Of a DNA stretch of 64,000 nucleotides, positions 3,182 to 64,000 are shown piece after piece. Positions within the stretch are counted from its first letter, which is position 1. Each line of letters opens with the position of its first letter. The DNA comes from Paramacrobiotus metropolitanus (taxonomy: Eukaryota > Tardigrada > Eutardigrada > Parachela > Macrobiotidae): the NCBI RefSeq assembly GCF_019649055.1, contig NW_026570241.1, positions 558,001 to 622,000 on the forward strand, read 5' to 3'. The notes beneath the pieces were generated by a model. That model made no database searches, was not told the origin of the DNA, and saw nothing but the letters and a program-made list of their open reading frames with translations. The position numbers were made by a program, and so were the translations under genes.

Positions 3182-5303
3182 TCAGTTCTTCCCCATCTGT
3201 GCAGCAATTCTGGCTATGGTGTCCCCACTTTGCACAACGTACCTGCGAACTAAAGCCAAAACCAAAACTCTAACACAAGCATTCCGTACGAAAATAAGTG
3301 TGCTCTGCTCGTACTTACGTTCAGGAAAAAACCGGAACGAATGCACCACAATTTCTTCTATATGATCCGCTTCGTAATCTTTATAAACACATAAACTTAT
3401 CGTTACGGGAAGTGCTTTCTGTGGAATACTTTGCGCAGTGCCGGCATGACTCCATAATTTAAACAACAAATCCCGGTTGCTACTCTGATGATCGTGCTGG
3501 GAAGAAAACGTCACGTTTCCCGGCTTCCATTCGTATGTATGGGTTGTGTACGTCCCAACAAGGAAAAACGAGAAAGCGTGCTGCTTATCTGCACCGCTTG
3601 AAAAGGGCGATGGCAGACGCCGACTGGCGACCCCGTAACTAGCGATCGGAGCATCGGCGTTACCCCACCGCGAAAACTGAATACCGATACGCGGATGAGG
3701 GTCCATTTGACTGTAAAGAGCGAAAACTACGTGAGGATGTAGTTGATCCAGACGGCTTTCAATGTGAAACTGGTAACGGCCGAAACCGAACGTATCGACC
3801 GAGCGAACACCGGCGCAATGGAAAAAATTGTTACGCTTGGTCAAACGGAGGTGGAGTTGATCGTCGATGACTTGGACATTGTTCACACCGGCTTCGGACA
3901 TTTCCATGACCGTCCACATTAGGTCTGAGAAACGAATCGTGGCTGGACTCTTCTCCGATGTTGCAGCGGTTGTCGCCGCAGTTGTCGAGCCAGTATTTGC
4001 CTTGTCAGTACCAATTGCTGTCTGGTAGTTTGGCTTTCCAGTGGTGCTGCTCTCGTCGCAGTGCAATTGCGGCCTGCGCTCCACTCTTTCAAAGTTGTCG
4101 TCGATGCACCCGTAAGCCTTCTGTAGTTTCGTGACATCCAGCGCGCTCAGCCATTTGCGCTGACCCATTCTCACAGGCGAACGAATCTTGGGAATGATGG
4201 CCGGTTTGTCGCGGCTCTTGGCGAAATCCCACGCTGCATAGTGCAGAATGGATTCGTAGTCGTACTGGAGACCGTGGGTGGGCATATGTGGCAAGATACC
4301 GTAGTTCAGCTCGTACATGTTGGGCTGAATGTTTTCGGTGAATACTTGGACGAATTCATCACGGTCAGGTCGGTTCTGTTCGTGGTAGAAGCCGAGCGCA
4401 TGCAGAAGTTCGTGCAGAATAATTCCGTCTTTCATACAGCCGCTTCCCAGTCGGATTTCCGTTGTTCGTCCAGGTATTATCCCGACGTGCGACATGCACC
4501 TACAAGTTACAATCAAATACAATAGATTATCACGTTTCTAACTGACTATACATTTTTTTTATTTTTAGCACGACTGTTATAGTTTTCAACCGGCTGCAAT
4601 AAAGAGTTGCCGCAAATTAAGCTTTACTGACCCTCGCCCAGCGGGAACGATAGATATGTATTCGGTTTCCTCCGTTTGGATCTTGAAAGACAAGCAGTGA
4701 TCTGTGCGTCGCTCGATGGTGTTCATGGCGTTACGGATACGCTGCTTGGTTTCTTCGTCTGTAAATATTTACCTAATTAAACCACATAATTTCACGAAAC
4801 AACTGCTAATAGTTTCACTAAAATAATAATTCCATGATTTATATAAGCGAAAAAGTGGGAAATAAGAATGCACTACACTAAGTAAATTGAATATTGGTAC
4901 ACTGCTGCATTAAATATTGGTCAAAAACAGTTACTGTACCGAATGCCGGGTGTAGACGATATGGAATGCACTGTCCGCTGTTAGGCCAGTAATTGCTACC
5001 CGACACAATGTGACCGCTTCCCGGTTCCTCTGCGGCCAACATCGGGTATCCCGGTGTGGCTGCATCTTCCCAGATAATATCGGCTCTGGTCAGTGCTTCT
5101 TCCGATTCGCTGACCGATGGGTGAATTCGATGTCGCCATTCTGCGCCGAGAACTTGTCATATTCGAAATTGTTGGGTAATGCCATTCAAAGAGTGCTGCC
5201 CACCTGATGGTAATTCTGCGCAGTTAATCTGTTTCAAATGTAATAGGCAATGCGCAATAAGCAGAGCACTGAACATCAGTCGTAGAACATTCGTGCTGAA
5301 CAT
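3182..5303 (-). CDS. Secreted astacin protease with GH16-like and LysM domains (astacin-1, left copy)
   Basis: Five exons: 5303-5204, 5140-4940, 4758-4632, 4499-3319, 3249-3182, 558 codons to the first stop. The start at 5,303 opens a signal peptide (MFSTNVLRLMFSALLIAHCL). Propeptide follows, then the zinc-protease domain from about residue 68, with HELLHALGFYHE near 172-183 and Met-turn SILHY near 226-230, where Met is replaced by Leu. A Ser/Thr-rich linker (about 283-328) leads to a ConA-like/GH16-type fold (about 329-520: LHLRLTKRNN, GFGRYQF, IQFSRWGNADAP, YEWKPGNVTF). The usual acidic ExDxE reads RIGIQ, so glucanase activity is unlikely. The end is a LysM (YVVQSGDTIARIAAQMGKN) broken by TGA at 3,182, although LysM-like sequence continues to 3,110. 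Expected to be extracellular. It is divergent with astacin-3 across about 0.9 kb. Confidence 0.8.
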
Positions 5304-6190
5304 TGCGGTGGTCGCAGTTTCACTCGCAACAAAAATACTGCTGCCGAAGTTACCCAATTAACATAAATATGGTTGAACGGACAATAAGATGCTGGGAGCT
5401 TAGGTCAATGTAAGTACAGCTGCTGAACACGAGTAGTAGAGTAATTATTTGATTTTGGTTAAACCGGTCAGACGACAAACAACTGCATATGACTGTGTGT
5501 CCTGGCAGTATTGAGTGAGTCCAGAAAACAACCACTATCTGATCCCAACCGCTACGGTATAATGGTTGTATCACGCAGGTGTCATCTGAAGTCTAAAGTA
5601 TTCTGATAAATCTGCGTGCTCTCTCTAACTGCGTCCATGTACTCGTAATTTTGACAGCTTCTCCCTGCTTCACAAGGTTGTATGAACAGATAAGCAACAA
5701 CAAAGTCGGATAAATCACAGTACCAACATAGTGCAGTGAGTCGGCGTCACTGCAGTCGGAGTAACGCAAATCGGCAAAGGCATAGTGGAAAACGTAGCGA
5801 CACTAGGTAGAATGCAATGCGTACAGACTAATGCCGTACATACCAAAAGAAAACTTTATTCAACAGATCTTCCTCGTGTAGCCCGTAAATTTTTCACAGT
5901 GCTGCCTGCGACCAACAGCGCGAATCCAGAACGCAACAGAAAGTAGTAGTCGAGTAAGTACCGGTACTTACATACTTCTCACAGTTAAATCACACTTGTA
6001 TCAAGATGTTACCGATAAGACCACAGACGATTAAAGACTTGCAATCAGTTCTGCTAATCGTGTCTGAAGACTTGCCAACATACAGACTAAAAGTGAAATA
6101 GACCTGGTAGGGCAGTTCTTTGCAGAACATCGGGTTTGGCGTGTAATAAGGAGCGTGAAAGTACGAGTGCTTAATAACCTTTTTTTAAAA
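5304..6190. promoter_or_regulatory. Shared 5' region between divergent astacin-1 and astacin-3 (left)
   Basis: About 890 bp separate the two start codons, which face away from each other; the arrangement is conserved in the right arm (61,987-62,877). A head-to-head pair of secreted proteases suggests a shared promoter region. I see no clear TATA box or initiator, so the label rests on position only. Confidence 0.4.
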
Positions 6191-8606
6191 ATGTTCACAG
6201 ACAGTGCTCCGTTAATCCTTAGTTTACGCGCCTTATGCTTGTACACTTATTTTATAGAGAGTTACTGTGCGGAATTACCGACAGGTGTGTGATAATGTCA
6301 TAGTTGTAAACTTGTTATACCACTAGTATTTACCTAAAGAAAAAATTGCAGAAGTTTGAAAACTCTAATATTTTACAAGAAAATACTGCTTCTGTATCCG
6401 ATTAGATGCGTAATCTCCTTAATTTTGTGTGAATTTTATTTGCAGACTGGCAGAGCAGAATAGATCTATCGGTTAATGAATCAACAGAACCGGAAACTGG
6501 AGATGACATCATTTGGGACGATGGGGGGTATGCCCTGCTCGCATCCGCGGACGTGGATGAGACAGACCACCGGGTTTCGTTCAGTTATTGGCCTGATAGC
6601 GGGAAAGGTGTTCCTTACTTCATACATCCAGCTTTTGGTAAATCTGCATGAAAGATACTGGCAAATTGCAGATTACTTACCTTCTTCGTACCATCGCTAT
6701 CATATATATATTTTAAGATCCGGCGTAAAAGATCGGTTACTATATCTACGATATCATCGAACGCCGTTGACATTGTGCCAGTGTCAACGGTTATGTGTGC
6801 AAAATTAATTTAATTTTAATAAATACATTCAGATCATTGTACTTTAGTAACTCAGTTTATCACTTTATTTCTAGGTGACGCGGATCGTCAAAAAATTCTG
6901 AAAGCTTTGCGAACCATAGAGCGTTGAGTAGATAATTGTGTACAGTTCAAAGTACGTGCAAATGAAGAGGAGCACATTTCAATCGTGCCATATGGACGAG
7001 GGTAACTACTGACTAGTAACTACAGTATACCGTACACCGTGGTATGTTTCCGGTTTCGACAGGAGGTTGAACTACATAATTATACTACAGCAAGAATCGT
7101 TATAACTATTAAAATGCCACGAATTTTCGTGCAAATATGAAACGAAACGTTGTAATAGGTTAATTAAAATACTAACAGAAACATTAATAAACTGACTACT
7201 ACCTTAATATTAAGTACTGTTAGTTTAGTAATACTATATTATGATGCTATACATAGTAATTACGTACTGATTACTGTGCGTACAATACATACAGCAGAAC
7301 CAAGTATTGCGCTCGCACAGCGTACATCCACTTCTACAATTCTAGTTGCCTGTCTCACGTGGGACGGACTCCTCGCCGCGTTACCGAGGTCCGACTCAGC
7401 AGGAACTGCATGAAAGAAGGCATTATTATGCACGAACTTCTACATGCACTCGGCTTTTACCACGAGCAAAACCGGCCAGATCGGGATGAGTTTGTGCAGG
7501 TGTACCCTGAGAACATACAACCAGAAATGTACGACACAAACTACCGAATATTGCGTAGTATGCCCACACATGGCATTCCGTACGACTACGAATCTATCCT
7601 CCATTATGCAGCCTGGGACTTCGCCATCAAACGCGATAAGCCAGCCATAATTCCCAAGATCCGCACCTCTGTGAGGATGGGTCAGCGCAAATGGATGAGT
7701 CCACTGGATGTCGTGAGACTGCAGAAAGCTTATGGATGTCTCGATGATAACTTTGAATAAATAACGCAAAGCCCTGTGGTTGCGTCCACATTAACCGAGA
7801 CCACAGCGCTAGCCGCTCTTAACACCAGCCTATCGAGCCAGAGCCTTGCTGCTTTTTTTGCCGAACAGAGAACACGTATGCTTAGCGAAAATTATAAGAT
7901 TAATTTTTGAATGAGATTATTCAGCCTTAAGTTCCACGATATTGTATAAATCGGTTGCAGAAAACGGTAAATTTTGCTGCTACTTGGTATTTCAGTGAGA
8001 ACCAACATGGCGTGCTCGGACCATCTGAAGTGCGGCTGTTTTCATGGCTGGTGCTGGGCGTATGCTTACTGGGAACTAATGAAAATCGGCGACCCGTGGT
8101 GTTGGACGCAGCCGGTGGGTGTTCCAGGCGGGCAAAGATCCTTTGCATCGTGCGGCGCTGATAACGATTGCAACATCACGATGACGTGCGGCGACAACAT
8201 CACATATACCGGCAGCGGTCCACCAGAAGTCCGTCCAGCCTTTGCGGACGTCACAGCTGGGCCAACGTCACAATGCAAAACAAATCTTCAGTACTGCGGG
8301 CAGCTTTTACGTTTTTTAGGTAGAAACCCTTATTGTTAGATACGTATACTGTATACGCGCGTGCAGCGTTACTAGTTGATCTGCACTGATACAAACGCTT
8401 CCGCGCATACTCTAAACTTACAGCGTGCATAAATTTTCAGCGTTTCACCACTTTATTAATGCTTTGCAGGCTATAGTGTCGGGGAGGGTGAATATTTGTC
8501 AAATATGCTATTTAAGTGCAAAGATGGCCGTAATGTGGAACCGATTTCAAACTGTAAAAAATGCCGCGACGGTGGTGCGGATAAGAACGACCACTGCGAG
8601 CCCTGA
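6191..8606 (+). pseudogene. Astacin with Cys-rich C-terminal module, left copy, disrupted (astacin-3)
   Basis: Exons 6191-6284, 6446-6637, 6875-7001, 7346 onward, then 7996-8319 and 8470-8606. The signal peptide starts MFTDSAPLILSLRALCLYTY, and the zinc site is HELLHALGFYHEQNRP with SILHY. Two lesions are absent from the right copy: TGA at 6,925-6,927 (CGA on the right) and TAA at 7,758-7,760 (AAA on the right). The splice donor used by the right copy after the catalytic domain (GTGCGT) reads GTTGCG here. The downstream Cys-rich exons stay open (CGCFHGWCWAYAYW, CKKCRDGG). This copy probably no longer makes the full protease; the intact counterpart is 59,596-61,986. Confidence 0.8.
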
Positions 8607-9367
8607 GGTAATGCAGGTAGGGTAAATCAACGTTTGCACAAATTGCACTTTTTAGATGACTGTTCAGCGTTGAATCTTTGTTATCTCTATATGTTCGCTG
8701 CTGCGTTCATTTCAGTGGCGCCTAAATCCGAGCATTCAATCTCAAAGCCAATTGTTTGGGCCGCAACTAGGCTTCCGAAGGTTGCGGACCCGATTTTTTT
8801 TAGTGTGACGATGTCGACGATTTTCCAGTACTGCTGAACGCCGAATGGTGACCTGTGCCACGAAATGTGCAATGTGCGCTACATAAATATTATTGGCGTT
8901 ATTATGGTTTTCTGTGTTTTAATGCGCCTTTTATCATCTGCACTGCGCTTATTACAGCATGTTGATTACATGCAAGTTGATTATTACAGCATGTTGATTG
9001 TACGAGGAATATCGCATCGGAATAAAGTTCAATAAATAAAGTTAAAAAAACCAGGATGGTATAGTTTTTTTGTTAAAATATTGCAAATTAGAATTTGGGA
9101 GGCCAAGGAATTCGACCACAAAACACTATAACGCGGGGTCGTATGGAACGCCGCGCCTATCCTCGACAGAACAACCCGGAAACGTCGACTTCATTGGCGA
9201 TGTTGCCGCCACACAAAAAACCACCAACTGAGGAAAGCGGAATCTGCAGCCAGTGAAACTGTGGTGCAGATCCGTCAAAACAGCGAGGAAATGTACGGGG
9301 TGGAGATTCCCAGAAATAGCAATAGCAAGTTTGGAGGGCGGAGAGTCCCGCTCTGACAACACGGTCC
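8607..9367. other. Intergenic, no gene recognised
   Basis: Lies between the Cys-rich exon of astacin-3 and the 3' end of SMYD, which converge. It contains a short irregular direct repeat of the unit TACAGCATGTTGATT (about 8,951-8,999), partly shared with the right arm around 59,200-59,250. An open stretch at 8,717-8,836 ends in Cys-stop, but I cannot tie it to a family. Confidence 0.4.
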
Positions 9368-11870
9368 TTATTTTGCTGTTTGCATGGGAGATTTTTCTGA
9401 AAATTCTAAAACAAGGGCCTGAAGTTTTTCTTGCAGCAGTAACCACGATGCAATCCTCCCCGTCACAACACTCTTCTTGCATAATGTTGAATAGGTATCC
9501 AGAGCGTCTTTCATTAATTCGATCGCTAAAGGAACAGCATCCAAGAGCAGCGGTAATAGCCGCTTTTTTTGTTCCTTATTTTCTCCAATAAATTCCGTTC
9601 CCCAATTTAATACACACGCTGACGCTTCGCGAAGAAACTGCGCCCGATAGAAGCTGTATTTAGGAGACACGTTCCTACACAAATTCAAAGCAGAAATTAT
9701 AATTATGGAATTTGCAAACCGTTTTCCTCATCAACTTACCGGACACAGACGATCATATCACGATACAGTTCCCATGCTTCCTGGTACCGCCCCGATTCGC
9801 TGCACGTTCGAGCCACATCCCAACCCAGAACGAAGCGCAGCTGCGCTTCCGGCTGCAGAATATCAGCCTTCTCCAGTTCCTTCCACAGTGGAAATTTCTT
9901 CACCATAATCGCCTGGCTGTCCCGTGCGTTCCACATGTCAAGGTGATTGGCGAAGTCATTTTCGTGATTTTGTAAAAACTTTTGGAGTTTACGGAGATTA
10001 ACTTCGTTGACAGCACAACACTGTGCACAGGGCAGCAGCGCGCGGTGATCGCTTGGTATGCGTTCTGTACAGCCTTTTGTGGCGCATTTCAGCGGATTTA
10101 TGATGGCTTCCTGCAGCATAAAAAATTTTAGAAGATATTAATTTATCTAATCCACCATGCTTAGAGACGCACAAACACTTTACTATGAATAAGTATAATA
10201 ATGCGCTTACGTATGCATCCGAACATTTACGACACGTGCACTCTACGTCGCCGTACAGTCTATCTGCGTAAATTTTATTCCGTTCTTTCACTGGCCATCG
10301 GAAGGGGAAGTCTTTCAGATCGTACAAAAGCACCTGCACAGAAGAACAAAATACCGGCATTCACAGCAGTTGTACAACAAACGATGCTGCTATAGTGCTG
10401 CAACATCTTAACTCAAGAAATGCGAAATCATGGCATAAAAGATAACTTTTGGTTGTGAATATTAAAATGCAAGGTCACCACTGCAGATACGAATGCGCAC
10501 ATCAGGATCGAAAAAACATCGGTTTACGAGCTTGATGTACTAGTATTTCATTAAATCGTCTCGTACGTAACAAAGAGAACAGAGACTAAAGTTAAAGATT
10601 AGAATGAGCATGACCAGCTTCAGAACAGATTGCCGAACATGGTGAATCGATTAACACAATACTTCTTCCGCTTGAATACAAACAACGCCAAGTTCAGTAA
10701 ATAAGTACTTTGTCGGTCATGTCAAACTGCCGTTTTACTTACGTCTTGTAGCCCGCTGTAATCCGGAATGTCATCCAGAGCGTGCAGCAAAGCGTCCGTC
10801 CATCGAACGAAACCAGGGCATTCTGATCGGAGCATGCTTCGGGCATCGAGCCACTGGGGGCATCCGGAAAAAGACCCATTCCAAAGAAAACAGGACGATC
10901 TCCATCGTATTCATAAATAAGATGATTATGTAATTCAATTCTCGTTATGATGTCCGCAATATCGGAATCTGACAGCAGAGAGTGGCCACCGACCGCCGTG
11001 GGAAACGCGGCTTCCAGTAAACCTTCAAACAATTTTTCTCTAACCAACTCCAGTTTTCTGTAAAAACAAACGCGATGTTTGAACAAATTCACAAGACAAG
11101 CGCAAGCAGTGTTAAACCAACTGTCGTGTTATTGAGTTAACGCTCGGAAAAATCTTGAGAATTTGCTGTGCTGGCATTTGTTTCTCACTTTCGGAGACTG
11201 TGTCTTTGGACATATTCTGTAAACACATATGAGTACAGTTACTAACAAAATTAACAATTGGGACAATAACGCGTTGTCTGCAAGCCAAGTTTCTTACAAT
11301 AATACTAAACATACTGTACTTACAAAAATTTTGTTCATAATCTTGAGAAGAATGATTGAATTGGTGGAAAATATTCGAGAGGTGTTGCCCTGCATGTCGC
11401 AAGCTAAGCGCATCATCCTCACCATCCGATTTACATCATGTTGTGATTCTGTTTCCTGTCTGTAGTTTTTTATACGCTTCAACAAGGAACATTCGGATTT
11501 GTGCTCTTTCTTCCAGTCAGCGCGCTAACGAAACATCCATAAGGCATAAGGTATAAGAAACAAAACGAGCACGCAGTCTTTCTAAAATAAGTAAACAGTC
11601 AAACAAAAAATTAAGACAGAATCTGCCAACTGTTGTTGGTTGGCTGACAGACTCAGCCGCTGACTCATTTTAAAAGCCTGTATTGCTTCGTACCTGGCAA
11701 TTCTCATTACAGTACCGATACAACCGGCATCCTTGGCAGGACCGCAGTTTTGCAGATTCGCGGAAGCAACACGCACAACGTGTTTCATGATCGTGCCACT
11801 CGAATGACCAGACCCACGCTTCGCATGACGTGATTTTCTGCCCAGCAGGAATTAGTCTACCCCTCATCAT
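9368..11870 (-). pseudogene. SMYD-type MYND/SET protein, left copy with frameshift
   Basis: Seven exons: 11870-11694, 11524-11324, 11216-11122, 11057-10743, 10333-10211, 10110-9740, 9674-9368. Exon 1 has the start of the SET domain (GRLIPAGQKITSCEAW) and a MYND zinc finger (CACCFRESAKLRSCQGC, then RYCNENC), finished by DWKKEHKSEC in exon 2. Exon 4 holds the SET core, but the usual NHSCxPN motif reads PEACSDQN, so methyl transfer is doubtful. Exon 5 has the post-SET cysteines (CTCRKC). The C-terminal half is helical and TPR-like. Relative to the right copy, exon 4 lacks one base in a T run (10,789-10,791 on the plus strand), shifting the frame. Without that lesion the product would be about 529 residues. 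A base-calling error cannot be excluded. Confidence 0.75.
11312..11318. mobile_element. TA-CTG-TA excision-type scar in SMYD intron 2
   Basis: The left arm has TACTGTA here, where the right arm has a single TA (56,891-56,892): a 5-bp difference of the form left by Tc1/mariner excision (target duplication plus three bases of the terminal repeat). It lies just inside the intron after the donor GTAAGT and does not affect the splice site. Confidence 0.5.
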
Positions 11871-14238
11871 TGCACTTTGAATTCAACGGTTATCAGTTGA
11901 TGCGAAACTATCGATCCAGATGGGACTTTCTCCACGCCCAAATGTCACCGCAAATACAAACTTTAAATGTCCAAGATCCTAGGCAATTTATCCTATATGT
12001 AACTGGAACGGCACAAAGTTGTAGCCACACGATCAAGCAGTGTAGACAGTGCTTTGGCAGAGAGTGTCTGCGTATTACCGGCAGAGTCTCGTATTCAAGC
12101 AGGTCAAACTGTCTGTTGGTGAGTACTTGTGAGTTTTGTTTGTCGCAAATACTGACACATCACGATTATATTATACGGTGTCCACTACAAAAAAAGCATG
12201 CGTAATCAATAACTTCAGTACTTTTAGTTTTGCTAATACCAGAAAATGGAGGCACTTCATAAAGGAGACCAGCTAGTCACGCTAACTACATTCCAGCTCA
12301 GGGTAGGTCGTGCCTGTTTTAAGAGGGTTTGCTCACCAAAGCGAGCTTAAATTAGGAGCTTTATGAATAGTATTAAATACTAAATACAAATTACAAGGGT
12401 TTTAAAAAAATAAAGCTGCAAGCCTGCAGATATTACTATGCAGTGGCTAAGTGCAGAATCGGTCTCGTATTTGCAATCTGATATACTGCGGCCTCGCTTG
12501 TGGATTATATAGAAGTACTGGTGATAGGCTGGTAGCGGCAAGAAGTTTCATTGTTTTGATGGTTAAAAATCAGTGAACCCGAGACCTGTTGTTATCTGTA
12601 CATTACCTGTTGCAAGCAAACACTCAAGCACTTTACAAAATGATGGAAGCAGTTCACGCAATGCCGTCTCGTTTGTCAACAATTTTGAAATACCGCTGTG
12701 CGGATAAAATTGAGCTGTAGCAACTTTAGAAAAGGAAATCACGTTTAGTACTAACAGGAAAGCAGTGTTCCAAGCGGTCGGCTTATTATGTCAAGAATTT
12801 TAAAAATACGAGTACATTACCAGCGTCATATTATTTTCTGCACAAGTAATGAGGTAGTATGGCGTTCCACAGCCCCACAGCATCGGGCGTTAATTTAATA
12901 CGCCAGTTTTGGTAGAACGTCTGTTATCAGTTTAACTATACAGTGAAGCTACTCCAAAGTAAGCGAAAACAGCAATACAGTTAACCGCGAAAAAGGCCGT
13001 GATGCATTCGCCTGCTCAGTAATTCCAACGACATACAGCCGCTACCACACCCCTTCTAGTAGAGTAGATCATGGGAACGCCTGCAATAAAACCGACACAT
13101 CGTTTCCGGCTTCAAAGAACCTGTGGATCATACTGAAAGCAAATATTAGAGTAGTTCTTTATTAATAACGACTACCCTTTCGAACCTGGGTGATGTTTGT
13201 GCGCTCTTTCACTGATTCCCCGCTTATACCGCCACCAGCCAACTCCGCAAATACGATACTACAGATAATAAAGTGCTTATCAAAGCGGCACATGCCTATT
13301 ATAGTAATTATATATTAGAAAACTCGAAGCGTCGCAACACCTGGATGTATCCAGAAAACATACAGTACGTTAAAACTTGGCCACCGCTACTAGCATGGGT
13401 GTTAAGTCCAGAGAAATCGAACGGTCACAAGAAATCGACGGGGAACAGGGAATTTTCGCGTTAAATTAAAAATTTGGATTATTTTACTTATAGTAATAAA
13501 GGGGACAGTGTGGCACAGTAACGTACAATGTAGGACTAAATGGTCGCATAGCCCCATACCCAGCATTCTGTACGCAAGCGGTGCAGTGCACTTGTACGAA
13601 ACGGATATTTTGAGCTCAGTCGTACAGTGCACTGCGCTGCATTCGTACTGAATGTGGAGATGTTGGGTATGTGACCATTTTGTCCTAAGCTGTACGTGTA
13701 CGTCGATAATATTCTTTTAATAAAGGGTTGGACAATCAGCTGTTCCTTTGAGCCGCAAAACTTTTATTTTATTGAGCCGCCTCACTGGCTTTGGCCAGCA
13801 GGAAGATACCATTTATACCGACTTGCTCACACCTCTGTGACTCCTTCAAAGCTTGCAGTTAGTTAAGCAGGTAGCACAGTAATGCTTCTTCATTCAGGCC
13901 TGTTTCACCAACTTCTAGTTTTAGCCAAACCGCAAAGGAGTCCCGCTTTTTTGCTTTGCTTATTTTTCTGTAGGAGTGTTTCTTAATTCTTAATACTTCT
14001 GTTTCTTGAACTAAAACGCCAGGTTTAATTTGAATACGTGGCACAACGAACTACGTACAGGAAACTTTTGCTAAACGGTACGTTGATCAACGATTACAGA
14101 ATCGAAAGGACAATCTCTTCTAAAATCATCTAAAATGAGGTCATAGTACAGTACACTAGCTTTATAAAATGAAAGGAGTGGTACGGTGCTAGTTGTATCA
14201 TACTCTGTACACGGAAAGTACGATATAAAATAAGCATC
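11871..14238. other. Gene-poor intergenic stretch (left)
   Basis: Between the SMYD start and astacin-4. No exon with a recognisable domain on either strand. The sequence is conserved in the right arm (54,140-56,338) except for the 169-bp MITE insertion at 13,524. The length and mirrored conservation reflect the arm duplication, not demonstrated function. Confidence 0.45.
13526..13692. mobile_element. Foldback MITE with TA target duplication, left arm only
   Basis: This 167-bp block is absent from the right arm, where the intact site reads CGTACACGTACGTTACTG at about 54,676-54,693. It is flanked by TA on both sides (13,524-13,525 and 13,693-13,694). The ends are inverted: CAATGTAGGACTAAATGGTC at the left, and the complement of the right end reads CAGCTTAGGACAAAATGGTC. 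The inverted similarity continues inward (GCAGTGCAC ... GTGCACTGC), so nearly the whole element can fold back. TA duplication with ends starting CA fits a Tc1/mariner-type non-autonomous element. No coding sequence. Confidence 0.85.
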
Positions 14239-14443
14239 GGACCTACGTAAGTACTATTTTTCTAACGCCACATGATTAGGTATTTTGTGCGTATACTCGT
14301 ACTGTATTTACAGTTAGTACTGTATTTACAGTTAGCTGGTACTGTTACAGTTAGCTGGTACTGGGACCTACGTAAGTACTATTTTTCTAACGCCACATGA
14401 TTAGGTATTTTGTGCGTATACTCGTACTGTATTTACAGTTAGC
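14239..14443. repeat. Tandem duplication carrying the astacin-4 signal exon (left)
   Basis: About 80 bp starting GGACCTACGTAAGTAC occurs at 14,239 and again at 14,364 (spacing 125 bp). Between the copies are shorter direct repeats of TACTGTATTTACAGTTAG and GTTAGCTGGTACTG. Both copies contain the same ATG with the hydrophobic start MIRYFVRILVLYLQL. Only the second has a phase-compatible donor leading into astacin-4. The right arm has the same duplication at 53,936-54,138, so it predates the arm duplication. Confidence 0.85.
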
Positions 14444-15803
14444 TGGTATAAACAACATGCACCAAAACATGTCGCTAACATCTTTCAGGTTTTGGATATT
14501 ATGCTGCTTCATCCACTGCGCCAAACCAGCCAGCTGCGCCAAGCTACCACAAGGTTTGTCCGAAAAGAGATTATGATTTAACGTTGTCATTTGATTTGAG
14601 ATTAGAAGACGTCTGGATTGGTTTTGCAAAACTTCCGGCACAACCGTTTACTTCTACGATTAAGCCAACAACTGATTTCCGCAGTTAAGATGGAAGAGTA
14701 ATTGGCTGCTTATACATTCTGACTGCTAAATGTTGTGCAAGAAACCTTCTGCAGGCTGGAAAAGCCGGATACATTCCTCGATTTTGGAGGCTGATGAATC
14801 CCTAACCGGAAATGATATCATTTGGAATGAGGACGCTTCCGGACATATGGCTGCACACGGGAACGAAAGCGGGCAGATGTACAGTTACAGTTACTGGCCG
14901 AACACCGGAAAATGTGTTCCTTACTTGATACATCCAGAGTTCGGTAAAGCTGCGTAAAAAATTGAAATACTGTGAACAAGTACATTGTACAAAAGGCTTG
15001 GTTACTACTCTAGTATATGAACCGGTGCGGTCTGTTAGTTGTGGGCTTCTCTGATCTTTCGGCTAGGAATGTTAGCTCATCACCGCCACACTTAAGATTG
15101 AGTGCTTTCGCTGTTTAGATAGCAGAGCTCGAAGGCTTATTACGGATGCGCTGCGCACGATAGAACGGCGAACCGACAACTGTTTAAATTTCAAAATTCG
15201 CTCTGATGAGAAAGAGTACATTGGATTTTTTCCCGGAAGGGGGTACGCTAAAGGCGGCTAAACACTACAGTCAACCTTTAATAATCCATCCAGATATGCC
15301 GCGATATCGATTAATTTTGCAGATGTAATTCACAAGTTGGGAGAGTTCCCGGAAGTGTAACACACATTAAACTTGGCAGCCGCTGCATGGCAGAAGGTAT
15401 TATTTTGCACGAAATTCTCCACGCGCTAGGCTTTTACCACGAACAAAACCGTCCCGATCGGGATGATTACGTGCAAGTGTTTGTCGACCATATTCAGCCC
15501 GGAATGTACAACATGAATTACCGTATCTTGCCCAATATGTCGACACACGGGGTGCAGTACGACTTCGACTCCATTCTGCACTATTCCCCTTTCGAATTCG
15601 CCATCAGCCGGAAACGGCCAGCAATGTTGCCGCGATTCGGGAAAGACAAGATGATTGGTCAGCGCAGACGGCTGAGTAGCCAGGATGAGACCAAAATCAA
15701 GAAAGCGTACGGCTGCATCGATGAAAACTTTGAGAAAGTGCCGCAGACGCCTGCAGTGTGCAGGGACAGTGCAGGTGCAGTGTCCGTTGATGTAGATATT
15801 TGA
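14397..15803 (+). CDS. Secreted astacin metalloprotease (astacin-4, left copy, intact)
   Basis: Four exons: 14397-14445, 14755-14943, 15128-15242, 15323-15803, 277 codons plus stop. The first exon encodes the short signal MIRYFVRILVLYLQLAG, with the donor GTATAA in the phase the next exon needs. Exon 2 holds the propeptide and the start of the catalytic domain (YWPNTGKCVPYLIHPEFG), exon 3 the part equivalent to RTIERRTDNC, and exon 4 the zinc site HEILHALGFYHE (about 147-158) with SILHY in place of the usual SxMHY. It ends KVPQTPAVCRDSAG plus a short tail. No GH16-like or LysM domain. Likely extracellular peptidase. The right copy has lost exons 2, 3 and the zinc site by deletion. Confidence 0.8.
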
Positions 15804-20177: not shown

Positions 20178-20196
20178 AGGTCACCGGCGGTGACCT
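20178..20196. promoter_or_regulatory. 19-bp palindrome with two AGGTCA half-sites
   Basis: AGGTCACCGGCGGTGACCT is a palindrome with 9-bp arms around one central base. The outer six bases on each side are the nuclear-receptor half-site AGGTCA in inverted orientation with seven bases between. It sits inside the piggyBac-like element, so it may be part of the transposon end structure rather than a hormone-response site. Confidence 0.3.
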
Positions 20197-44190: not shown

Positions 44191-44224
44191 TGCATTCGAA
44201 GCGCTGCAGATCGTCAAAGGCTTA

Positions 44225-52705: not shown

Positions 52706-53026
52706 CTACATGTAATCAAATAAAACCGAGAAAGAAAATCTACTGTTTCCCACGTCTATGTATTTACGCTTACGTTTACGGATTCCCCAAGCGAATGAGT
52801 GTACGTAATTCCGTTTTTGTTGCTTCTTAATGGCACCATAAGGCATAAAATCGGTTTGCTCCGTACGCGCATTCTCCTCCCAAGGCAAGGTGTTTCAGCC
52901 GAAAGCAAATTCATTGCAGTTGCAACGAGGTGGCTGACCTCCGCATGTCCGTGGGTTTTCAATGTTGGCGATAGTACACAGCCACCAGGTGGTACACAAG
53001 ACTGTGCATGACACATCTAAACAAAG
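52706..53026 (-). other. Decayed Cys-rich exon downstream of astacin-4 (right)
   Basis: Mirror of 16,332-16,600 with one extra A in a run (five against four) that changes the end of the frame. The stop after CNCNEFAFG is present in both arms, so the decay predates the duplication, or the stretch is not coding. Confidence 0.3.
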
Positions 53027-53557
53027 ACATTTTTGAGACAACCGTAGGAATTTTTCATATACATTCTCGCTTACCAACACCGCGAACCGGTCCGTTAAAA
53101 ATGTTTCCGCTGCTTTGTAAACTGGCTGGCGCATAACCTAGGCAGGAAGTCCACATTAATGATCTTTTCTTTGCCTGTTCTTAGATCCAGTTTGCGTAAG
53201 CGGCAGCGAGACAACGAAATTTCTCTGTAGTAGCTATTTCAACGCCAAAAAGGCTCCTTAACTGTGTTGCGCTGACAACCAAAAACTGCAAGGATTTTAG
53301 TATGTAAAACGGAGAATCGTGCGAGTACCTAAGTTTGGAGGCGATTCTGTGGTTGTAGTACGTTTTCTCGTGCTACTCTTCATTGTCGTAGTACTGCGAT
53401 CCGAAGTAGCAGTAATCCTAAACGAACTGGCTTCGTTTCCTGCAATTATAATCCGCTTGAGTAAGAATAATAATCCGCTTGAGCAAGAACGCGGGTCCTT
53501 GCTGATGCCCTTAGTTTTTGCAACGTACAATTTATTGAAGCTACAATGTTTAGCAGA

Positions 53558-53980
53558 TCAAATATCTACATCAACGGACACTGCACCTGCACTGTCCCTG
53601 CACACTGCAGGCGTCTGCGGCACTTTCTCAAAGTTTTCATCGATGCAGCCGTACGCTTTCTTGATTTTGGTCTCATCCTGGCTACTCAGCCGTCTGCGCT
53701 GACCAATCATCTTGTCTTTCCCGAATCGCGGCAACATTGCTGGCCGTTTCCGGCTGATGGCGAATTCGAAAGGGGAATAGTGCAGAATGGAGTCGAAGTC
53801 GTACTGCACCCCGTGTGTCGACATATTGGGCAAGATACGGTAATTCATGTTGTACATTCCGGGCTGAATATGGTCGACAAACACTAACCTGAAAGATGTT
53901 AGCGACATGTTTTGGTGCATGTTGTTTATACCAGCTAACTGTAAATACAGTACGAGTATACGCACAAAATACCTAATCAT
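53558..53980 (-). pseudogene. Astacin-4, right copy, catalytic core deleted
   Basis: A 984-bp deletion (left-arm positions 14,492-15,475) joins the signal exon directly to the last part of the catalytic domain. The open frame now reads MIRYFVRILVLYLQLAGINN, then NMSLTSFRL fused to VFVDHIQPGMYNMNY and the rest of astacin-4, including SILHY and KKAYGC. The propeptide and the zinc-binding HEILHALGFYHE are gone, so it cannot be a protease. The fusion remains open for 140 codons and would be secreted if expressed. Confidence 0.85.
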
Positions 53981-54138
53981 GTGGCGTTAGAAAAATAGTA
54001 CTTACGTAGGTCCCAGTACCAGCTAACTGTAACAGTACCAGCTAACTGTAAATACAGTACTAACTGTAAATACAGTACGAGTATACGCACAAAATACCTA
54101 ATCATGTGGCGTTAGAAAAATAGTACTTACGTAGGTCC
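53936..54138. repeat. Tandem duplication of the astacin-4 signal exon (right)
   Basis: Same two-copy structure as 14,239-14,443, in mirror orientation, with the same internal short repeats. Conservation in both arms dates it before the arm duplication. Confidence 0.8.
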
Positions 54139-56338
54139 GATGCTTATTTTATATCGTACTTTCCGTGTACAGATTATGATACAACTTGCACCGTACCACT
54201 CCTTTCATTTTATAAAGCTAGTGTACTGTACTATGACCTCATTTTAGATGATTTTAGAAGAGATTATCCTTTCGATTCTGTTATCGTTGATCAACGTACC
54301 GTTTAGCAAAAGTTTCCTTTACGTAGTTCGTTGTGCTACGTATTCAAATTAAACCTGGCGTTTTAGTTTAAGAAACAGAAGTATTAAGAATTAAGAAACA
54401 CTCCTACAGAAAAAATAAGCAAAGCAAAAAAGCGGGACTCCTTTGCGGTTTGGCTAAAACTAGAAGTTGGTGAAACAGGCCTGAATGAAGAAGCATTACT
54501 GTGCTACCTGCTTAACTAACTGCAAGCTTTGAAGGAGTCACAGAGGTGTGAGCAAGTCGGTATAAATGGTATCTTCCTGCTGGCCAAAGCCAGTGAGGCG
54601 GCTCAATAAAATAAAAGTTTTGCGGCTCAAAGGAACAGCTGATTGTCCAACCCTTTATTAAAAGAATATTATCGACGTACACGTACGTTACTGTGCCACA
54701 CTGTCCCCTTTATTACTATAAGTAAAAATAATCCAAATTTTTAATTTAACGCGAAAATTCCCTGTTCCCCGTCGATTTCTTGTGACCGTTCGATTTCTTT
54801 CTGGACTTAACACCCATGCTAGTAGCGGTGGCCAAGTTTTAACGTACTGTATGTTTTCTGGATACATCCAGGTGTTGCGACGCTTCGAGTTTTCTAATAT
54901 ATAATTACTATAATAGGCATGTGCCGCTTTGATAAGCACTTTATTATCTGTAGTATCGTATTTGCGGAGTTGGCTGGTATAAGCGGGGAATCAGTGAAAG
55001 AGCGCACAAACATCACCCAGGTTCGAAAGGGTAGTCGTTATTAATAAAGAACTACTCTAATATTTGCTTTCAGTATGATCCACAGGTTCTTTGAAGCCGG
55101 AAACGATGTGTCGGTTTTATTGCAGGCGTTCCCATGATCTACTCTACTAGAAGGGGTGTGGTAGCGGCTGTATGTCGTTGGAATTACTGAGCAGGCGAAT
55201 GCATCACGGCCTTTTTCGCGGTTAACTGTATTGCTGTTTTCGCTTACTTTGGAGTAGCTTCACTGTATAGTTAAACTGATAACAGACGTTCTACCAAAAC
55301 TGGCGTATTAAATTAACGCCCGATGCTGTGGGGCTGTGGAACGCCATACTACCTCATTACTTGTGCAGAAAATAATATGACGCTGGTAATGTACTCGTAT
55401 TTTTAAAATTCTTGACATAATAAGCCGACCGCTTGGAACACTGCTTTCCTGTTAGTACTAAACGTGATTTCCTTTTCTAAAGTTGCTACAGCTCAATTTT
55501 ATCCGCACAGCGGTATTTCAAAATTGTTGACAAACGAGACGGCATTGCGTGAACTGCTTCCATCATTTTGTAAAAGTGCTTGAGTGTTTGCTTGCAACAG
55601 GTAATGTACAGATAACAACAGGTCTCGGGTTCACTGATTTTTAACCATCAAAACAATGAAACTTCTTGCCGCTACCAGCCTATCACCAGTACTTCTATAT
55701 AATCCACAAGCGAGGCCGCAGTATATCAGATTGCAAATACGAGACCGATTCTGCACTTAGCCACTGCATAGTAATATCTGCAGGCTTGCAGCTTTATTTT
55801 TTTTAAAAACCCTTGTAATTTGTATTTAGTATTTAATACTATTCATAAAGCTCCTAATTTAAGCTCGCTTTGGTGAGCAAACCCTCTTAAAACAGGCACG
55901 ACCTACCCTGAGCTGGAATGTAGTTAGCGTGACTAGCTGGTCTCCTTTATGAAGTGCCTCCATTTTCTGGTATTAGCAAAACTAAAAGTACTGAAGTTAT
56001 TGATTACGCATGCTTTTTTTGTAGTGGACACCGTATAATATAATCGTGATGTGTCAGTATTTGCGACAAACAAAACTCACAAGTACTCACCAACAGACAG
56101 TTTGACCTGCTTGAATACGAGACTCTGCCGGTAATACGCAGACACTCTCTGCCAAAGCACTGTCTACACTGCTTGATCGTGTGGCTACAACTTTGTGCCG
56201 TTCCAGTTACATATAGGATAAATTGCCTAGGATCTTGGACATTTAAAGTTTGTATTTGCGGTGACATTTGGGCGTGGAGAAAGTCCCATCTGGATCGATA
56301 GTTTCGCATCAACTGATAACCGTTGAATTCAAAGTGCA
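54139..56338. other. Gene-poor intergenic stretch (right)
   Basis: Mirror of 11,871-14,238 without the MITE; the empty TA is at 54,684-54,685. No coding signal. Confidence 0.45.
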
Positions 56339-58840
56339 ATGATGAGGGGTAGACTAATTCCTGCTGGGCAGAAAATCACGTCATGCGAAGCGTGGGTCTG
56401 GTCATTCGAGTGGCACGATCATGAAACACGTTGTGCGTGTTGCTTCCGCGAATCTGCAAAACTGCGGTCCTGCCAAGGATGCCGGTTGTATCGGTACTGT
56501 AATGAGAATTGCCAGGTACGAAGCAATACAGGCTTTTAAAATGAGTCAGCGGCTGAGTCTGTCAGCCAACCAACAACAGTTGGCAGATTCTGTCTTAATT
56601 TTTTGTTTGACTGTTTACTTATTTTAGAAAGACTGCGTGCTCGTTTTGTTTCTTATACCTTATGCCTTATGGATGTTTCGTTAGCGCGCTGACTGGAAGA
56701 AAGAGCACAAATCCGAATGTTCCTTGTTGAAGCGTATAAAAAACTACAGACAGGAAACAGAATCACAACATGATGTAAATCGGATGGTGAGGATGATGCG
56801 CTTAGCTTGCGACATGCAGGGCAACACCTCTCGAATATTTTCCACCAATTCAATCATTCTTCTCAAGATTATGAACAAAATTTTTGTAAGTATGTTTAGT
56901 ATTATTGTAAGAAACTTGGCTTGCAGACAACGCGTTATTGTCCCAATTGTTAATTTTGTTAGTAACTGTACTCATATGTGTTTACAGAATATGTCCAAAG
57001 ACACAGTCTCCGAAAGTGAGAAACAAATGCCAGCACAGCAAATTCTCAAGATTTTTCCGAGCGTTAACTCAATAACACGACAGTTGGTTTAACACTGCTT
57101 GCGCTTGTCTTGTGAATTTGTTCAAACATCGCGTTTGTTTTTACAGAAAACTGGAGTTGGTTAGAGAAAAATTGTTTGAAGGTTTACTGGAAGCCGCGTT
57201 TCCCACGGCGGTCGGTGGCCACTCTCTGCTGTCAGATTCCGATATTGCGGACATCATAAAGAGAATTGAATTACATAATCATCTTATTTATGAATACGAT
57301 GGAGATCGTCCTCTTTTCTTTGGAATGGGTCTTTTTCCGGATGCCCCCAGTGGCTCGATGCCCGAAGCATGCTCCGATCAGAATGCCCTGGTTTCGTTCG
57401 ATGGACGGACGCTTTTGCTGCACGCTCTGGATGACATTCCGGATTACAGCGGGCTACAAGACGTAAGTAAAAACGGCAGTTTGACATGACCGACAAAGTA
57501 CTTATTTACTGAACTTGGCGTTGTTTGTATTCAAGCGGAAGAAGTATTGTGTTAATCGATTCACCATGTTCGGCAATCTGTTCTGAAGCTGGTCATGCTC
57601 ATTCTAATCTTTAACTTTAGTCTCTGTTCTCTCTTTGTTACGTACGAGACGATTTAATGAAATACTAGTACATCAAGCTCGTAAACCGATGTTTTTTCGA
57701 TCCTGATGTGCGCATTCGTATCTGCAGTGGTGACCTTGCATTTTAATATTCACAACCAAAAGTTATCTTTTATGCCATGATTTCGCATTTCTTGAGTTAA
57801 GATGTTGCGGCACTATAGCAGCATCGTTTGTTGTACAACTGCTGTGAATGCCGGTATTTTTGTTCTTCTGTGCAGGTGCTTTTGTACGATCTGAAAGACT
57901 TCCCCTTCCGATGGCCAGTGAAAGAACGGAATAAAATTTACGCAGATAGACTGTACGGCGACGTAGAGTGCACGTGTCGTAAATGTTCGGATGCATACGT
58001 AAGCGCATTATTATACTTATTCATAGTAAAGTGTTTGTGCGTCTCTAAGCATGGTGGATTAGATAAATTAATATTTTCTAAAATTTTTTATGCTGCAGGA
58101 AGCCATCATAAATCCGCTGAAATGCGCCACAAAAGGCTGTACAGAACGCATACCAAGCGATCACCGCGCGCTGCTGCCCTGTGCACAGTGTTGTGCTGTC
58201 AACGAAGTTAATCTCCGTAAACTCAAAAGTTTTTACAAAATCACGAAAATGACTTCGCCAATCACCTTGACATGTGGAACGCACGGGACAGCCAGGCGAT
58301 TATGGTGAAGAAATTTCCACTGTGGAAGGAACTGGAGAAGGCTGATATTCTGCAGCCGGAAGCGCAGCTGCGCTTCGTTCTGGGTTGGGATGTGGCTCGA
58401 ACGTGCAGCGAATCGGGGCGGTACCAGGAAGCATGGGAACTGTATCGTGATATGATCGTCTGTGTCCGGTAAGTTGATGAGGAAAACGGTTTGCAAATTC
58501 CATAATTATAATTTCTGCTTTGAATTTGTGTAGGAACGTGTCTCCTAAATACAGCTTCTATCGGGCGCAGTTTCTTCGCGAAGCGTCAGCGTGTGTATTA
58601 AATTGGGGAACGGAATTTATTGGAGGAAATAAGGAACAAAAAAAGCGGCTATTACCGCTGCTCCTGGATGCTGTTCCTTTAGCGATCGAATTAATGAAAG
58701 ACGCTCTGGATACCTATTCAACATTATGCAAGAAGAGTGTTGTGACGGGGAGGATTGCATCGTGGTTACTGCTGCAAGAAAAACTTCAGGCCCTTGTTTT
58801 AGAATTTTCAGAAAAATCTCCCATGCAAACAGCAAAATAA
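56339..58840 (+). pseudogene. SMYD-type MYND/SET protein, right copy with frameshift
   Basis: Exons 56339-56515, 56685-56885, 56988-57082, 57147-57462, 57876-57998, 58099-58468, 58534-58840. MYND finger, degenerate SET core (MPEACSDQNALVSFDG) and post-SET cysteines as in the left copy. Exon 4 is intact here (FDGRTLLLHALDDIPDYSG), but exon 6 lacks one C at about 58,224 and runs into a stop after YKITKMTSP. The left copy has the complementary state. Either both are pseudogenes or one difference is a sequencing error. A read-through of the frame would give about 529 residues. Confidence 0.7.
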
Positions 58841-59595
58841 GGACCGTGTTGTCAGAGCGGGACTCTCCGCCCTCCAAACTTGCTATTGCTATTTCTGGGA
58901 ATCTCCACCCCGTACATTTCCTCGCTGTTTTGACGGATCTGCACCACAGTTTCACTGGCTGCAGATTCCGCTTTCCTCAGTTGGTGGTTTTTTGTGTGGC
59001 GGCAACATCGCCAATGAAGTCGACGTTTCCGGGTTGTTCTGTCGAGGATAGGCGCGGCGTTCCATACGACCCCGCGTTATAGTGTTTTGTGGTCGAATTC
59101 CTTGGTCTCCCGAATTCTAGTTTGCAATATTTTAACAAAAAAACTATACCATCCTGGTTTTTTTAACTATATTTATTGAACTTTATTCCGATGCGATATA
59201 CAATCAACATGCTGTAATAATCAACATGCATGTAATCAACATGCTGTAATAAGCGCAGTGCAGATGATAAAAGGCGCATTAAAACACAGAAAACCATAAT
59301 AACGCCAATAATATTTATGTAGCGCACATTGCACATTTCGTGGCACAGGTCACCATTCGGCGTTCAGCAGTACTGGAAAATCGTCGACATCGTCACACTA
59401 AAAAAAAATCGGGTCCGCAACCTTCGGAAGCCTAGTTGCGGCCCAAACAATTGGCTTTGAGATTGAATGCTCGGATTTAGGCGCCACTGAAATGAACGCA
59501 GCAGCGAACATATAGAGATAACAAAGATTCAACGCTGAACAGTCATCTAAAAAGTGCAATTTGTGCAAACGGTTATTTACCCTACCTGCATTACC

Positions 59596-61986
59596 TCAGG
59601 GCTCGCAGTGGTCGTTCTTATCCGCACCTCCGTCGCGGCATTTTTTACAGTTTGAAATCGGTTCCACATTACGGCCATCTTTGCACTTAAATAGCATATT
59701 TGACAAATATTCACCCTCTCCGACACTATAGCCTGTAAAGCATTAATAAAGTGGTGAAACGCTGAAACATTATGCACGCTTTAGTTTATAGTATGCGCGG
59801 AAACGTTTATGTTAGTGCAGATCAACTATCTGTAGTAACGCTGCACGCGCGTATACGGTATATGTAAGGGTTTCTACCTAAAAAACGTAAAAGCTGCCCG
59901 CAGTATTGGAGATTTGTCTTGCATTGTGACGTTGGCCCCGCTGTGACGTCTGCGAAAGCTGGGCGGACTTCTGGTGGGCCGCTGCCGGTGTATGTGATGT
60001 TGTCGCCGCACGTCATCGTGATGTTGCAATCGTTATCAGCGCCGCACGATGCAAAGGATTTTAGCCCGCCTGGAACACCCACCGGCTGTGTCCAGCACCA
60101 AGGGTCTCCGATTTTCATCGCTTCCCAGTAAGCGTACGCCCAGCACCAGCCATGAAAACAGCCGCATTTCAGATGGTCCGAGCATGCCATGTTGGTCCTC
60201 ACTGAAATACAAAGTATCAGTGAAATTTACCTTTTTCTGCAACCGTTTTCTACATGATTGGGAATTTAGGGCTGAATAACATCATTCAGAAATTAGTCAT
60301 TTATTTTCGCTAAACATACATGTTCTCTGTTCGGCAAAAAAGGCAGCAAGGTTCTGACTCGATATGCTCGTGTTGAGAGCGGAAGGCGCTGTGGTTACGG
60401 TTGTGGACGCACCCACAGGGCTTTGCGTTATTTTTTCAAAGTTATCATCGAGACATCCATAGGCTTTCTGCAGTCTCACGACATCCAACGGACTCATCCA
60501 TTTGCGCTGACCCATTCTCACTGAGGTGCGGATCTTGGGAATTATGGCTGGCTTATCGCGTTTGATGGCGAAGTCCCAGGCTGCATAGTGCAGGATGGAT
60601 TCGTAGTCGTACGGAATGCCATGTGTGGGCATACTACGCAAGATGCGGTAGTTCGTGTCGTACATTTCTGGTTGTATGTTCTCAGGATACACCTGCACAA
60701 ACTCATCCCGATCTGGCCGGTTTTGCTCGTGGTAGAATCCGAGGGCATGTAAGAGTTCGTGTATAATAATGCCTTCTTTCATGCAGTTCCTGCTGAGTCG
60801 GACTTCGGTAACGCGGCGAGGAGTCCGTCCCACGTGAGACAGGCAACTAGAATTGTAGAAATGGATATCGATATAAGGTGTGCGAACGCAATACTTGGTT
60901 CTGCTATCCGTATTCTAAGTAAGCAATCAATATGTAGCATCATAATAGTACTAAACTAACAGTAATATTAAGGTCAGTTTAATAATATTTCTGGTAGTAT
61001 GTATTGTACATACACTGATGATACACAAACAACGTTTCGTTTCATATTTGCCCAAAATTCGTGATAAACTGTTGGCAGTGTAATAGTTACAAGCATCCCT
61101 GCTGTAATACTAGTATATGTAGTTCAACCTGCTGCCAAAACATACAACGGTGTACGGTATACTGTAGTTACTAGTTACCCTCGTCCATATGGCACGATTG
61201 AAATGTGCTCCTCTTCATTTGCACATACTTTGAATTGTACACAATTATCTACTCGGCGCTCTATGGTTCGCAAGGCATTCAGAATTTTTCGACGATCCGC
61301 GTCACCTAGAAATAAAGTGATAAACTGAGTTACTGAAGTACAATGACCTGAATGTATTCAATAAAATTAAATTAACTTTGCACACATAACCGTTGGCACT
61401 GGCACAATATCAACCGCGTTTGACGATATCGTACAAACAGAAGCCGCATTTTTTACGCCGAATCTTAAATTGCATATGTGATAGTGATGGTACGATGAAG
61501 TTAATCTGCAATTTGCCTGTATCTTTCGTGCAGATTTACCAAAAGCTGGGTGTATGAAGTAAGGAACACCTTTCCCGCTATCAGGCCAATAATTGAACGA
61601 GACCCGGTGGTCTGTCTCATCCACGTCTGCGGATGCAAGCAGGGCATACCCCCCATCGTCCCAAATGATGTCATCTCCAGTTTCCGGTTCTGTTGATTCA
61701 TTAACCGATAGATCTATTCTGCTCTGCCAGTCTGCAAATAAAATTCACACAACATTAAGGAGATTACGCATCTAATCGGATACAGAAGCAGTATTTTCTT
61801 ATAAAACATTGGAGTTCTCAAACTTCTGCAATTTTTTCTTTAGGTAAATATTAGTGATATATCAAGTTTACAACTATGACATTATCACACACCTGTCGGT
61901 AAATCCGCGCAGTAACTCTGTATAAAATAAGTGTACAAGCATAAGGCGCGTAAACTAAGGATTAACGGAGCACTGTGTGCGAACAT
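59596..61986 (-). CDS. Secreted astacin with Cys-rich C-terminal module (astacin-3, right copy, intact)
   Basis: Six exons: 61986-61893, 61731-61540, 61305-61179, 60846-60413, 60201-59878, 59732-59596; 1,308 bp, 435 residues. Signal peptide MFAHSAPLILSLRALCLYTY; propeptide and catalytic start (YWPDSGKGVPYFIHPAFG); zinc site HELLHALGFYHE at about 167-178; SILHY at the Met-turn. The catalytic exon has a phase-1 donor (GTGCGT) leading into a Cys/Trp-rich module (HLKCGCFHGWCWAYAYW, PWCWTQPVGVPGG, CGADNDCNITMTC) and a final exon (FKCKDGRNVEP, CKKCRDGGADKNDHCEP). If that donor is skipped the frame ends at 60,297 with a 320-residue protein. Extracellular protease; the module may bind substrate. Divergent with astacin-1. 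Confidence 0.8.
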
Positions 61987-62877
61987 TTTTTTAAAAAAAG
62001 GTTATTAAGCACTCGTACTTTCACGCTCCTTATTACACGCCAAACCTGAATGGTTTGCAAAGAACTGCCCTACCAGGTTTATTTCACTTTTAGTCTGTAT
62101 GTTGGCAAGTCTTCAGACACGATTAGCAGAACTGATTGCAAGTCTTTAATCGTCTATGGTCTTATCGGTAACATCTTGATACAAGTGTGAGTTAACTGTG
62201 AGAAGTATGTAAGTACCGGTGCTTACTCGACTACTACGTACTTTCTGTTGCGTTCTGGATTCGCGCTGTTGGTCGCAGGCAGCACTGTGAAAAATTTACT
62301 GGTTACACGAGGAAGATCTGTTGAATGAAGTTTTCTTTTGGTACTGCATTAGCCTGTACGCATTGCATTCTACCTAGTGTCGCTACGTTTTCCACTATGC
62401 CTTTGCCGATTTGCGTTACTCCGACTGCAGTGACGCCGACTAACTGCACTATGTTGGTACTGTGATTTATCCGACTTTGTTGTTGCTTATCTGTTCCTAC
62501 AACCTTGTGAAGCAGGGAGAAGCTGTCAAAATTACGAGTACATGGACGCAGTTAGAGAGAGCACGCAGATTTATCAGAATACTTTAGACTTCAGATGACA
62601 CCTGCGTGATACAACCAATATACCGTAGCGGTTGGGATCAGATAGTGGTTGTTTTCTGGACTCACTCAATACTGCCAGGACACACAGTCATAGTGCAGTT
62701 GTTTGTCGTCTGACCGGTTTAACCAAAATCAAATAATTACTCTACTACTCGTGTCCAGCAGCTGTACTTATATTGACCTAAGCTCCCAGCATCTTATTGT
62801 CCGTTCAACCATATTTATGTTAATTGGGTAACTTCAGCAGCAGTATTTTTGTTGCGAGTGAAACTGCGACCACCGCA
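61987..62877. promoter_or_regulatory. Shared 5' region of astacin-3 and astacin-1 (right)
   Basis: Mirror of 5,304-6,190, same spacing. Conservation between arms with scattered substitutions; no core promoter motif identified. Confidence 0.4.
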
Positions 62878-64000
62878 ATGTTCAGCACGAATGTTCTACG
62901 ACTGGTGTTCAGTGCTCTGCTTATTGCGCATTGCCTGTTACATTTGAAACAGATTAACTGCGCAGAATTACCATCAGGTTGGCAGCACTCTTCGAATGGC
63001 ATTACCCAACAATTTCGAATATGACATGTTCTCGGCGCAGAATGGCGACATCGAATTCACCCATCGGTCAGCGAATCGGAAGAAGCACTGACCAGAGCCG
63101 ATATTATCTGGGAAGATGCAGCCACACCGGGATACCCGATGTTGGCCGCAGAGGAACCGGGAAGCGGTCACATTGTGTCGGGTAGCAATTACTGGCCTAA
63201 CAGCGGACAGTGCATTCCATATCGTCTACACCCGGCATTCGGTACAGTAACTGTTTTTGACCAATATTTAATGCAGCAGTGTACCAATATTCAATTTACT
63301 TAGTGTAGTGCATTCTTATTTCCCACTTTTTCGCTTATATAAATCATGGAATTATTATTTTAGTGAAACTATTAGCAGTTGTTTCGTGAAATTATGTGGT
63401 TCAATTAGGTAAATATTTACAGACGAAGAAACCAAGCAGCGTATCCGTAACGCCATGAACACCATCGAGCGACGCACAGATCACTGCTTGTCTTTCAAGA
63501 TCCAAACGGAGGAAACCGAATACATATCTATCGTTCCCGCTGGGCGAGGGTCAGTAAAGCTTCATTTACGGCGACTCTTTATTGCAGCCGGTTGAAAACT
63601 ATAGATTGCATCAGGTCAGCAGTGCTCACAGAAATCATTGCACCTCGATAATTGATTGCATGTTCTTTAACAGTCGTGCTAAAAATAAAAAACTATAGTC
63701 AGTAAGAGACGTGATAATCTATTGTGTTTGATTGTAACTTGTAGGTGCATGTCGCACGTCGGTATAATACCTGGACGAACAACGGAAATCCGACTGGGAA
63801 GCGGCTGTATGAAAGACGGAATCATTCTGCACGAACTTCTGCATGCGCTCGGCTTCTACCACGAACAGAACCGACCTGACCGTGATGAGTTCGTCCAAGT
63901 ATTCACCGAAAACATTCAGCCCAACATGTACGAACTGAACTACGGTATCTTGCCACATATGCCCACCCACGGTCTCCAGTACGACTACGAATCCATTCTG
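62878..64000 (+). CDS. Astacin-1, right copy, cut by the window end
   Basis: Exons 62878-62977, 63041-63241, 63423-63549 and 63745 to the window end. Signal peptide MFSTNVLRLVFSALLIAHCL, catalytic start YWPNSGQCIPYRLHPAFG and zinc site HELLHALGFYHE are intact; the open frame reaches YDYESIL at 64,000. Intron 1 is 63 bp in both arms (donor GTTGGC here, GTGGGC on the left). Intron 3 is 195 bp against 132 bp on the left. Whether the GH16-like domain and the LysM TGA are shared cannot be seen. Confidence 0.8.

Follow-up and report, generated by a model that had tools for sequence, protein, structure and literature searches.

A gene-bearing inverted repeat with a mosaic of diverged and near-identical segments in a tardigrade contig

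The 64-kb stretch of DNA analysed here (the window; contig C21:558,001-622,000, G+C ~43%) carries a large inverted repeat, whose arms were tracked beyond the window through a 20-kb flank on each side. Coordinates are window positions unless a contig is named, and the assembly that was searched comprises 169.8 Mb in 533 contigs. When the window is compared with itself by BLAST, 4,244-20,065 matches 49,282-64,000 in inverted orientation, and inclusion of the contig flanks carries the homology outwards at both ends (Table 1). Mirror arms had been described in a first-pass annotation as ~15.8 kb long on the left and at least 14.7 kb on the right; BLAST confirms their presence in the assembly and makes them slightly larger (3,107 to ~65,047). 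The unique 29-kb spacer of that description measures 29,216 bp and holds no arm-type duplication. Outside as well as inside the arm limits the identity of a global alignment drops to 35-45%, the level of unrelated DNA, and comparison of flank and spacer DNA at both arms detected no relatedness on either side. Beyond the arms there is a weak match (68.6% over 229 bp) between 2,862-3,082 on the left and 65,896-66,112 on the right, which might be a continuation. The locus has the make-up of a palindrome: two long homologous arms lie inverted on the same contig, separated by a unique spacer, and they carry duplicated genes. As assembled, both copies appear to reside on one chromosome. An Rfam search of the 64-kb window gave no match.

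Table 1. Arms, genes, arm-specific segments and identity tracts of the inverted repeat (window positions; identities count substitutions between the arms and are listed by left-arm position)
Feature	Position	Strand	Length	Counterpart and remarks
Left arm	3,107-20,065	+	16,959 bp	blastn self-comparison with contig flanks, MAFFT alignment
Right arm	49,282 to ~65,047	-	~15,766 bp	Ends ~1,047 bp outside the window, C21:623,047
Spacer	20,066-49,281		29,216 bp	
Repeat element	20,062-21,532		~1.47 kb	TTAA at both ends; exactly at inner edge of left arm
Astacin A, left	3,182-4,537	-		Open frame, LysM-like end (by eye)
Astacin A, right mate	63.7-65.1 kb	+		In-frame stop and frameshifts
Astacin B exon, left	7,260-7,760	+		Mate 60,297-60,914 (-)
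Astacin C exon, left	15,315-15,803	+		Zinc motif HEILHALGFYHE
Astacin C mate, right	53,610-53,885	-		Without the zinc-motif half; profile positions 107-188 only
MYND-finger (SMYD-like) gene, right	56,327-58,837	+		Left mate ~9,370-11,850 (-)
Ig/FN3 exons, right	50,141-51,145	+		Left mate 18,212-18,775 (-) plus adjoining DNA
MITE-like insertion, left only	13,523-13,691		169 bp	Imperfect terminal inverted repeats, GTAC direct repeat
Left-only segment	14,492-15,475		984 bp	Missing between 53,885 and 53,886 on the right
Arm segment	3,107-4,250			Identity 87.0%
Arm segment	4,251-6,250			Identity 98.1%
Diverged segment with astacin B exon	6,251-8,500	+		Identity 91.4%
Arm segment	8,501-9,250			Identity 98.9%
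Arm segment	9,251-13,526			Identity 99.86%
Arm segment	13,692-14,491			Identity 99.1%
Arm segment	15,476-17,750			Identity 100%
Arm segment	17,751-20,065			Identity 98.5%
Near-identical core	10,945-17,752	+		Two substitution-free runs
Substitution-free run 1	10,945-14,007		2,883 aligned columns	Mate 57,259-54,370
Substitution-free run 2	14,204-17,752		2,564 aligned columns	Mate 54,173-51,605

Five gene pairs can be recognised at exon level, namely three astacin metalloproteases, one MYND-finger protein and one Ig/FN3 adhesion-type protein, the domains being assigned by Pfam searches on translations in which X replaced stops. Every gene is inverted with respect to its mate and the strands of the genes within one arm are mixed; the five duplicated genes of the first-pass annotation hold up as pairs, but the term ‘head-to-head’ that it applied to them is loose. 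The astacin family is large in this genome, with 164 exon matches counted, and local astacin exons are also found near C21:655-675 and 834-836 kb. Between the arms the astacin B exon has a dS of 0.246 and a dN of 0.011 (dN/dS 0.04), and judged by these codon comparisons the two copies seem to be old and under constraint. For the Ig exon, dS is 0.031 and dN 0.026; the encoded protein is closest to contactin and neurofascin and is ectodomain-like. In the MYND-finger gene the zf-MYND domain is found with an E value of 2.9e-5 and the remaining exons are SMYD-like by eye. A diverged paralogue lies on contig C16 (71-74% DNA identity), and a PDB sequence search with the second exon returned no match. 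Both arms have a one-base frame break in their copy of this gene, located in a different exon in each arm.

The spacer contains one BTB/BACK gene, one topoisomerase (TOP3-like) gene and four rhodopsin-class GPCR genes, two of which were tested against Pfam and two assigned by similarity to those. The exons of the topoisomerase gene (31,827-35,093; Topoisom_bac, Toprim) match a second gene at C55:341,415-346,783 with 84-91% identity. In genome searches the spacer matched only repeats, gene families and one partial inverted copy; as these searches, which may miss matches, returned no allele-like second copy of the spacer, both haplotypes are seemingly not represented in the genome. The partial copy concerns the GPCR-rich part at 40,895-45,766, which recurs inverted and interrupted at C21:762,332-770,033, ~160 kb off, with 86-96% identity. 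Because the same contig has this second example, inverted duplications recur in the neighbourhood and the locus is less singular.

The two arms are far from uniformly similar. Overall substitution identity is 97.3% (417 mismatches in 15,615 aligned columns), with a full span of 83 to 100% along the arm and ~99.8% in the core from 9.25 to 17.75 kb. The mismatches are strongly clustered (dispersion index 17.3 per 250 columns, p ~1e-180), and the longest run free of substitutions extends over 2,883 columns, whereas 10,000 random redistributions of the 417 mismatches gave none longer than 568. Tract boundaries are sharp, and the segments of 98-99% identity retain their substitutions. The alignment, the dispersion index and the long run bear out the earlier impression, gained by eye, that similarity is uneven and peaks in mid-arm. 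Selective constraint was considered as the cause of the identical core and ruled out, since the noncoding DNA of the core is as alike as its exons. With approximate exon limits, noncoding divergence amounts to 9.07% at 6,251-8,500 versus 0.16% at 9,251-17,752, and the constrained astacin B exon has diverged further than the core introns; for both reasons constraint cannot account for the mosaic.

The arms also differ by gains and losses of DNA. The right arm presents an empty site where the left arm holds the 169-bp MITE-like element, of which at least 38 further genomic copies exist. These copies are 97-99% alike genome-wide, and this similarity suggests that the element may have been active recently. 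The 984-bp segment confined to the left arm includes the catalytic zinc motif of astacin C. Among the 1-2-bp indels at 10,945-17,752 the left arm is the shorter in 10, against 1. We read these short indels, together with the MYND frame breaks, as uncorrected nanopore errors in near-identical DNA; because of the asymmetry of the indels and the frame breaks, the consensus of the core is unreliable, and the actual identity there may lie on either side of the measured one. Indels of 5-6 bp are also present between the arms over the same interval, within the substitution-free stretches, and nanopore error does not account for them.

What could have generated this mosaic? We consider it probable that the arms arose by an old inverted duplication, that their core was then converted from arm to arm, and that the left MITE-like insertion and the right 984-bp deletion came later. 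A segment of ~16 kb with five genes would have been copied in inverted orientation ~29 kb away, long enough ago for ~0.25 substitutions per synonymous site to accumulate. Non-allelic conversion between the arms would have overwritten their central parts at least once, and probably several times, with the ends staying more diverged. Afterwards, the MITE-like element would have inserted on the left, and the right astacin C, provided that the assembly is correct, would have lost its catalytic part through a 984-bp deletion. The dS of 0.25 in the outer astacin exon indicates that the duplication is old and that the core was probably homogenised later. Conversion is supported because homologous DNA extends past the core in both directions, unlike what a fresh second duplication would leave. 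The homogenised tracts lie between diverged homologous DNA, and the main doubt about conversion concerns how good the core consensus is. Later gene conversion had been raised as a conjecture in the first-pass annotation; it is the explanation that best fits the sharp steps and the noncoding contrast, and it is inferred, as is the order of events. The first-pass interpretation as a whole, conversion with a haplotype join as the alternative, is partly supported.

The doubt about the consensus has its counterpart in an alternative, which we regard as unlikely, in which the inverted repeat is real and assembly accounts for part of the core's perfect identity, long reads having been pooled and short reads placed on one arm only, with the loss of moderate true differences. 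The asymmetric 1-2-bp indels and the frame breaks, complementary between the MYND copies, are in keeping with it, as is the fact that the published Paramacrobiotus assembly is nanopore-based, Illumina-polished and haploid-merged (PMC8277472). However, short reads with true arm-specific substitutions should correct their own arm, leftover errors are expected if the arms are truly identical there, and both the sharp tract boundaries and the substitutions kept in the segments of 98-99% identity argue against such inflation. A further artefact, which the first-pass annotation had offered as its alternative, is the joining of two haplotypes or contigs in opposite orientation. HaploMerger2 was used on the likely source assembly (PMC8277472), and false palindromes due to scaffolding error are a recognised problem according to a report on palindromes in parthenogenetic animals (PMC7953838). 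Yet with such a join similarity should run into the flank or the spacer, but at neither arm are these related; the spacer is not duplicated, and an identity range of 83 to 100% with a dS of 0.25 is neither uniform nor allele-like. The idea of a join fares poorly against these data and is, in our estimation, quite improbable. It is also possible that a polymorphic position of the segment was merged into one contig, or that a misjoin lies inside the repeat. A nanopore read N50 near 17 kb is given in a later paper (PMC11191345), so that few reads could span an arm and its junction if this is the source assembly.

Successive duplications have to be weighed as well: the outer parts would be old paralogues belonging to a local gene cluster, with a core that was re-duplicated recently. 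Local duplicates are abundant, as the astacin exons at C21:655-675 and 834-836 kb and the second inverted duplication, of the spacer GPCR region, at C21:762-770 kb testify, but diverged homologous DNA flanks the core collinearly at either end, so that a new copy must land exactly in register, and a replacement of that sort is, by definition, conversion; we deem this course of events very unlikely. It is also conceivable, and to our minds extremely improbable, that the arms are selected to recombine, such that crossover flips the GPCR spacer and conversion keeps the core genes, making the locus an invertible receptor segment.

How does the preferred course of events, an old inverted duplication with later conversion of its core, compare with known systems? 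The palindromes of the human Y chromosome, for instance P6 (PMC3723533), and the conserved palindromes of the X (PMC8981503) are also gene-bearing inverted arms around a non-duplicated spacer, and there, too, conversion tracts between arms are of kilobase scale (PMC3723533, PMC8981503). Their arms are >99% identical, whereas here homogenisation is confined to the core and parts of the outer arms are at 87-91%. In the report on parthenogenetic animals, one palindrome is listed for Hypsibius dujardini and four for Ramazzottius varieornatus (PMC7953838). These are likewise inverted collinear gene blocks on one contig, and they come from the same phylum; in the part of the report consulted they are identified by gene order, conversion not being studied at sequence level, and the hosts are parthenogenetic, whereas both sexes occur in the likely species here (PMC11191345). 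In Folsomia candida, palindromes, one with Dscam2 genes, also consist of inverted blocks of gene-family members, and the synonymous rate of ~0.2 quoted for one set is similar to that found here (PMC5490193). Their Ks range is wide and concerted evolution was not inferred (PMC5490193); because Folsomia shows no sign of it, conversion is not automatic in palindromes. The inverted gene pairs of Caenorhabditis (PMC1803023) also have near-identical inverted arms for which conversion was proposed, the main example having arms of ~2 kb and a spacer of 126 bp and being conserved in three species, maintained over speciation (PMC1803023). The locus is a further gene-bearing palindrome, of a kind known to include two tardigrades (PMC7953838), with a partial homogenisation and a gene set of its own. 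If confirmed, it would exemplify, at sequence level, how inverted copies of genes convert each other in a tardigrade, and its diverged outer arms, left-only MITE and right-only deletion would serve as markers for the dating and the direction of tracts. It is also useful to test how nanopore assembly handles near-identical inverted copies.

Repeats lie next to both arms. The TTAA ends of the ~1.47-kb element at the inner edge of the left arm look like a piggyBac-like target site. When the left part of the spacer served as query, ~48 matching segments of this element were found elsewhere, many of them nearly full-length, with 73-92% identity; two copies on contig C35 likewise start after TTAA, and the frames searched gave no Pfam match. 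At the inner edge of the right arm the TTAA is present and the element absent. An insertion of the element inside a longer left arm was ruled out, as homology is not resumed in the spacer past it, and we make no claim of a transposition-mediated duplication, the element occurring at a single boundary with no partner element. Just outside the right arm, C21:624900-629000 is occupied by a high-copy repeat of at least 4.1 kb with >30 copies of ~87-92% identity. It is possible that this repeat or the TTAA element helped to form the duplication.
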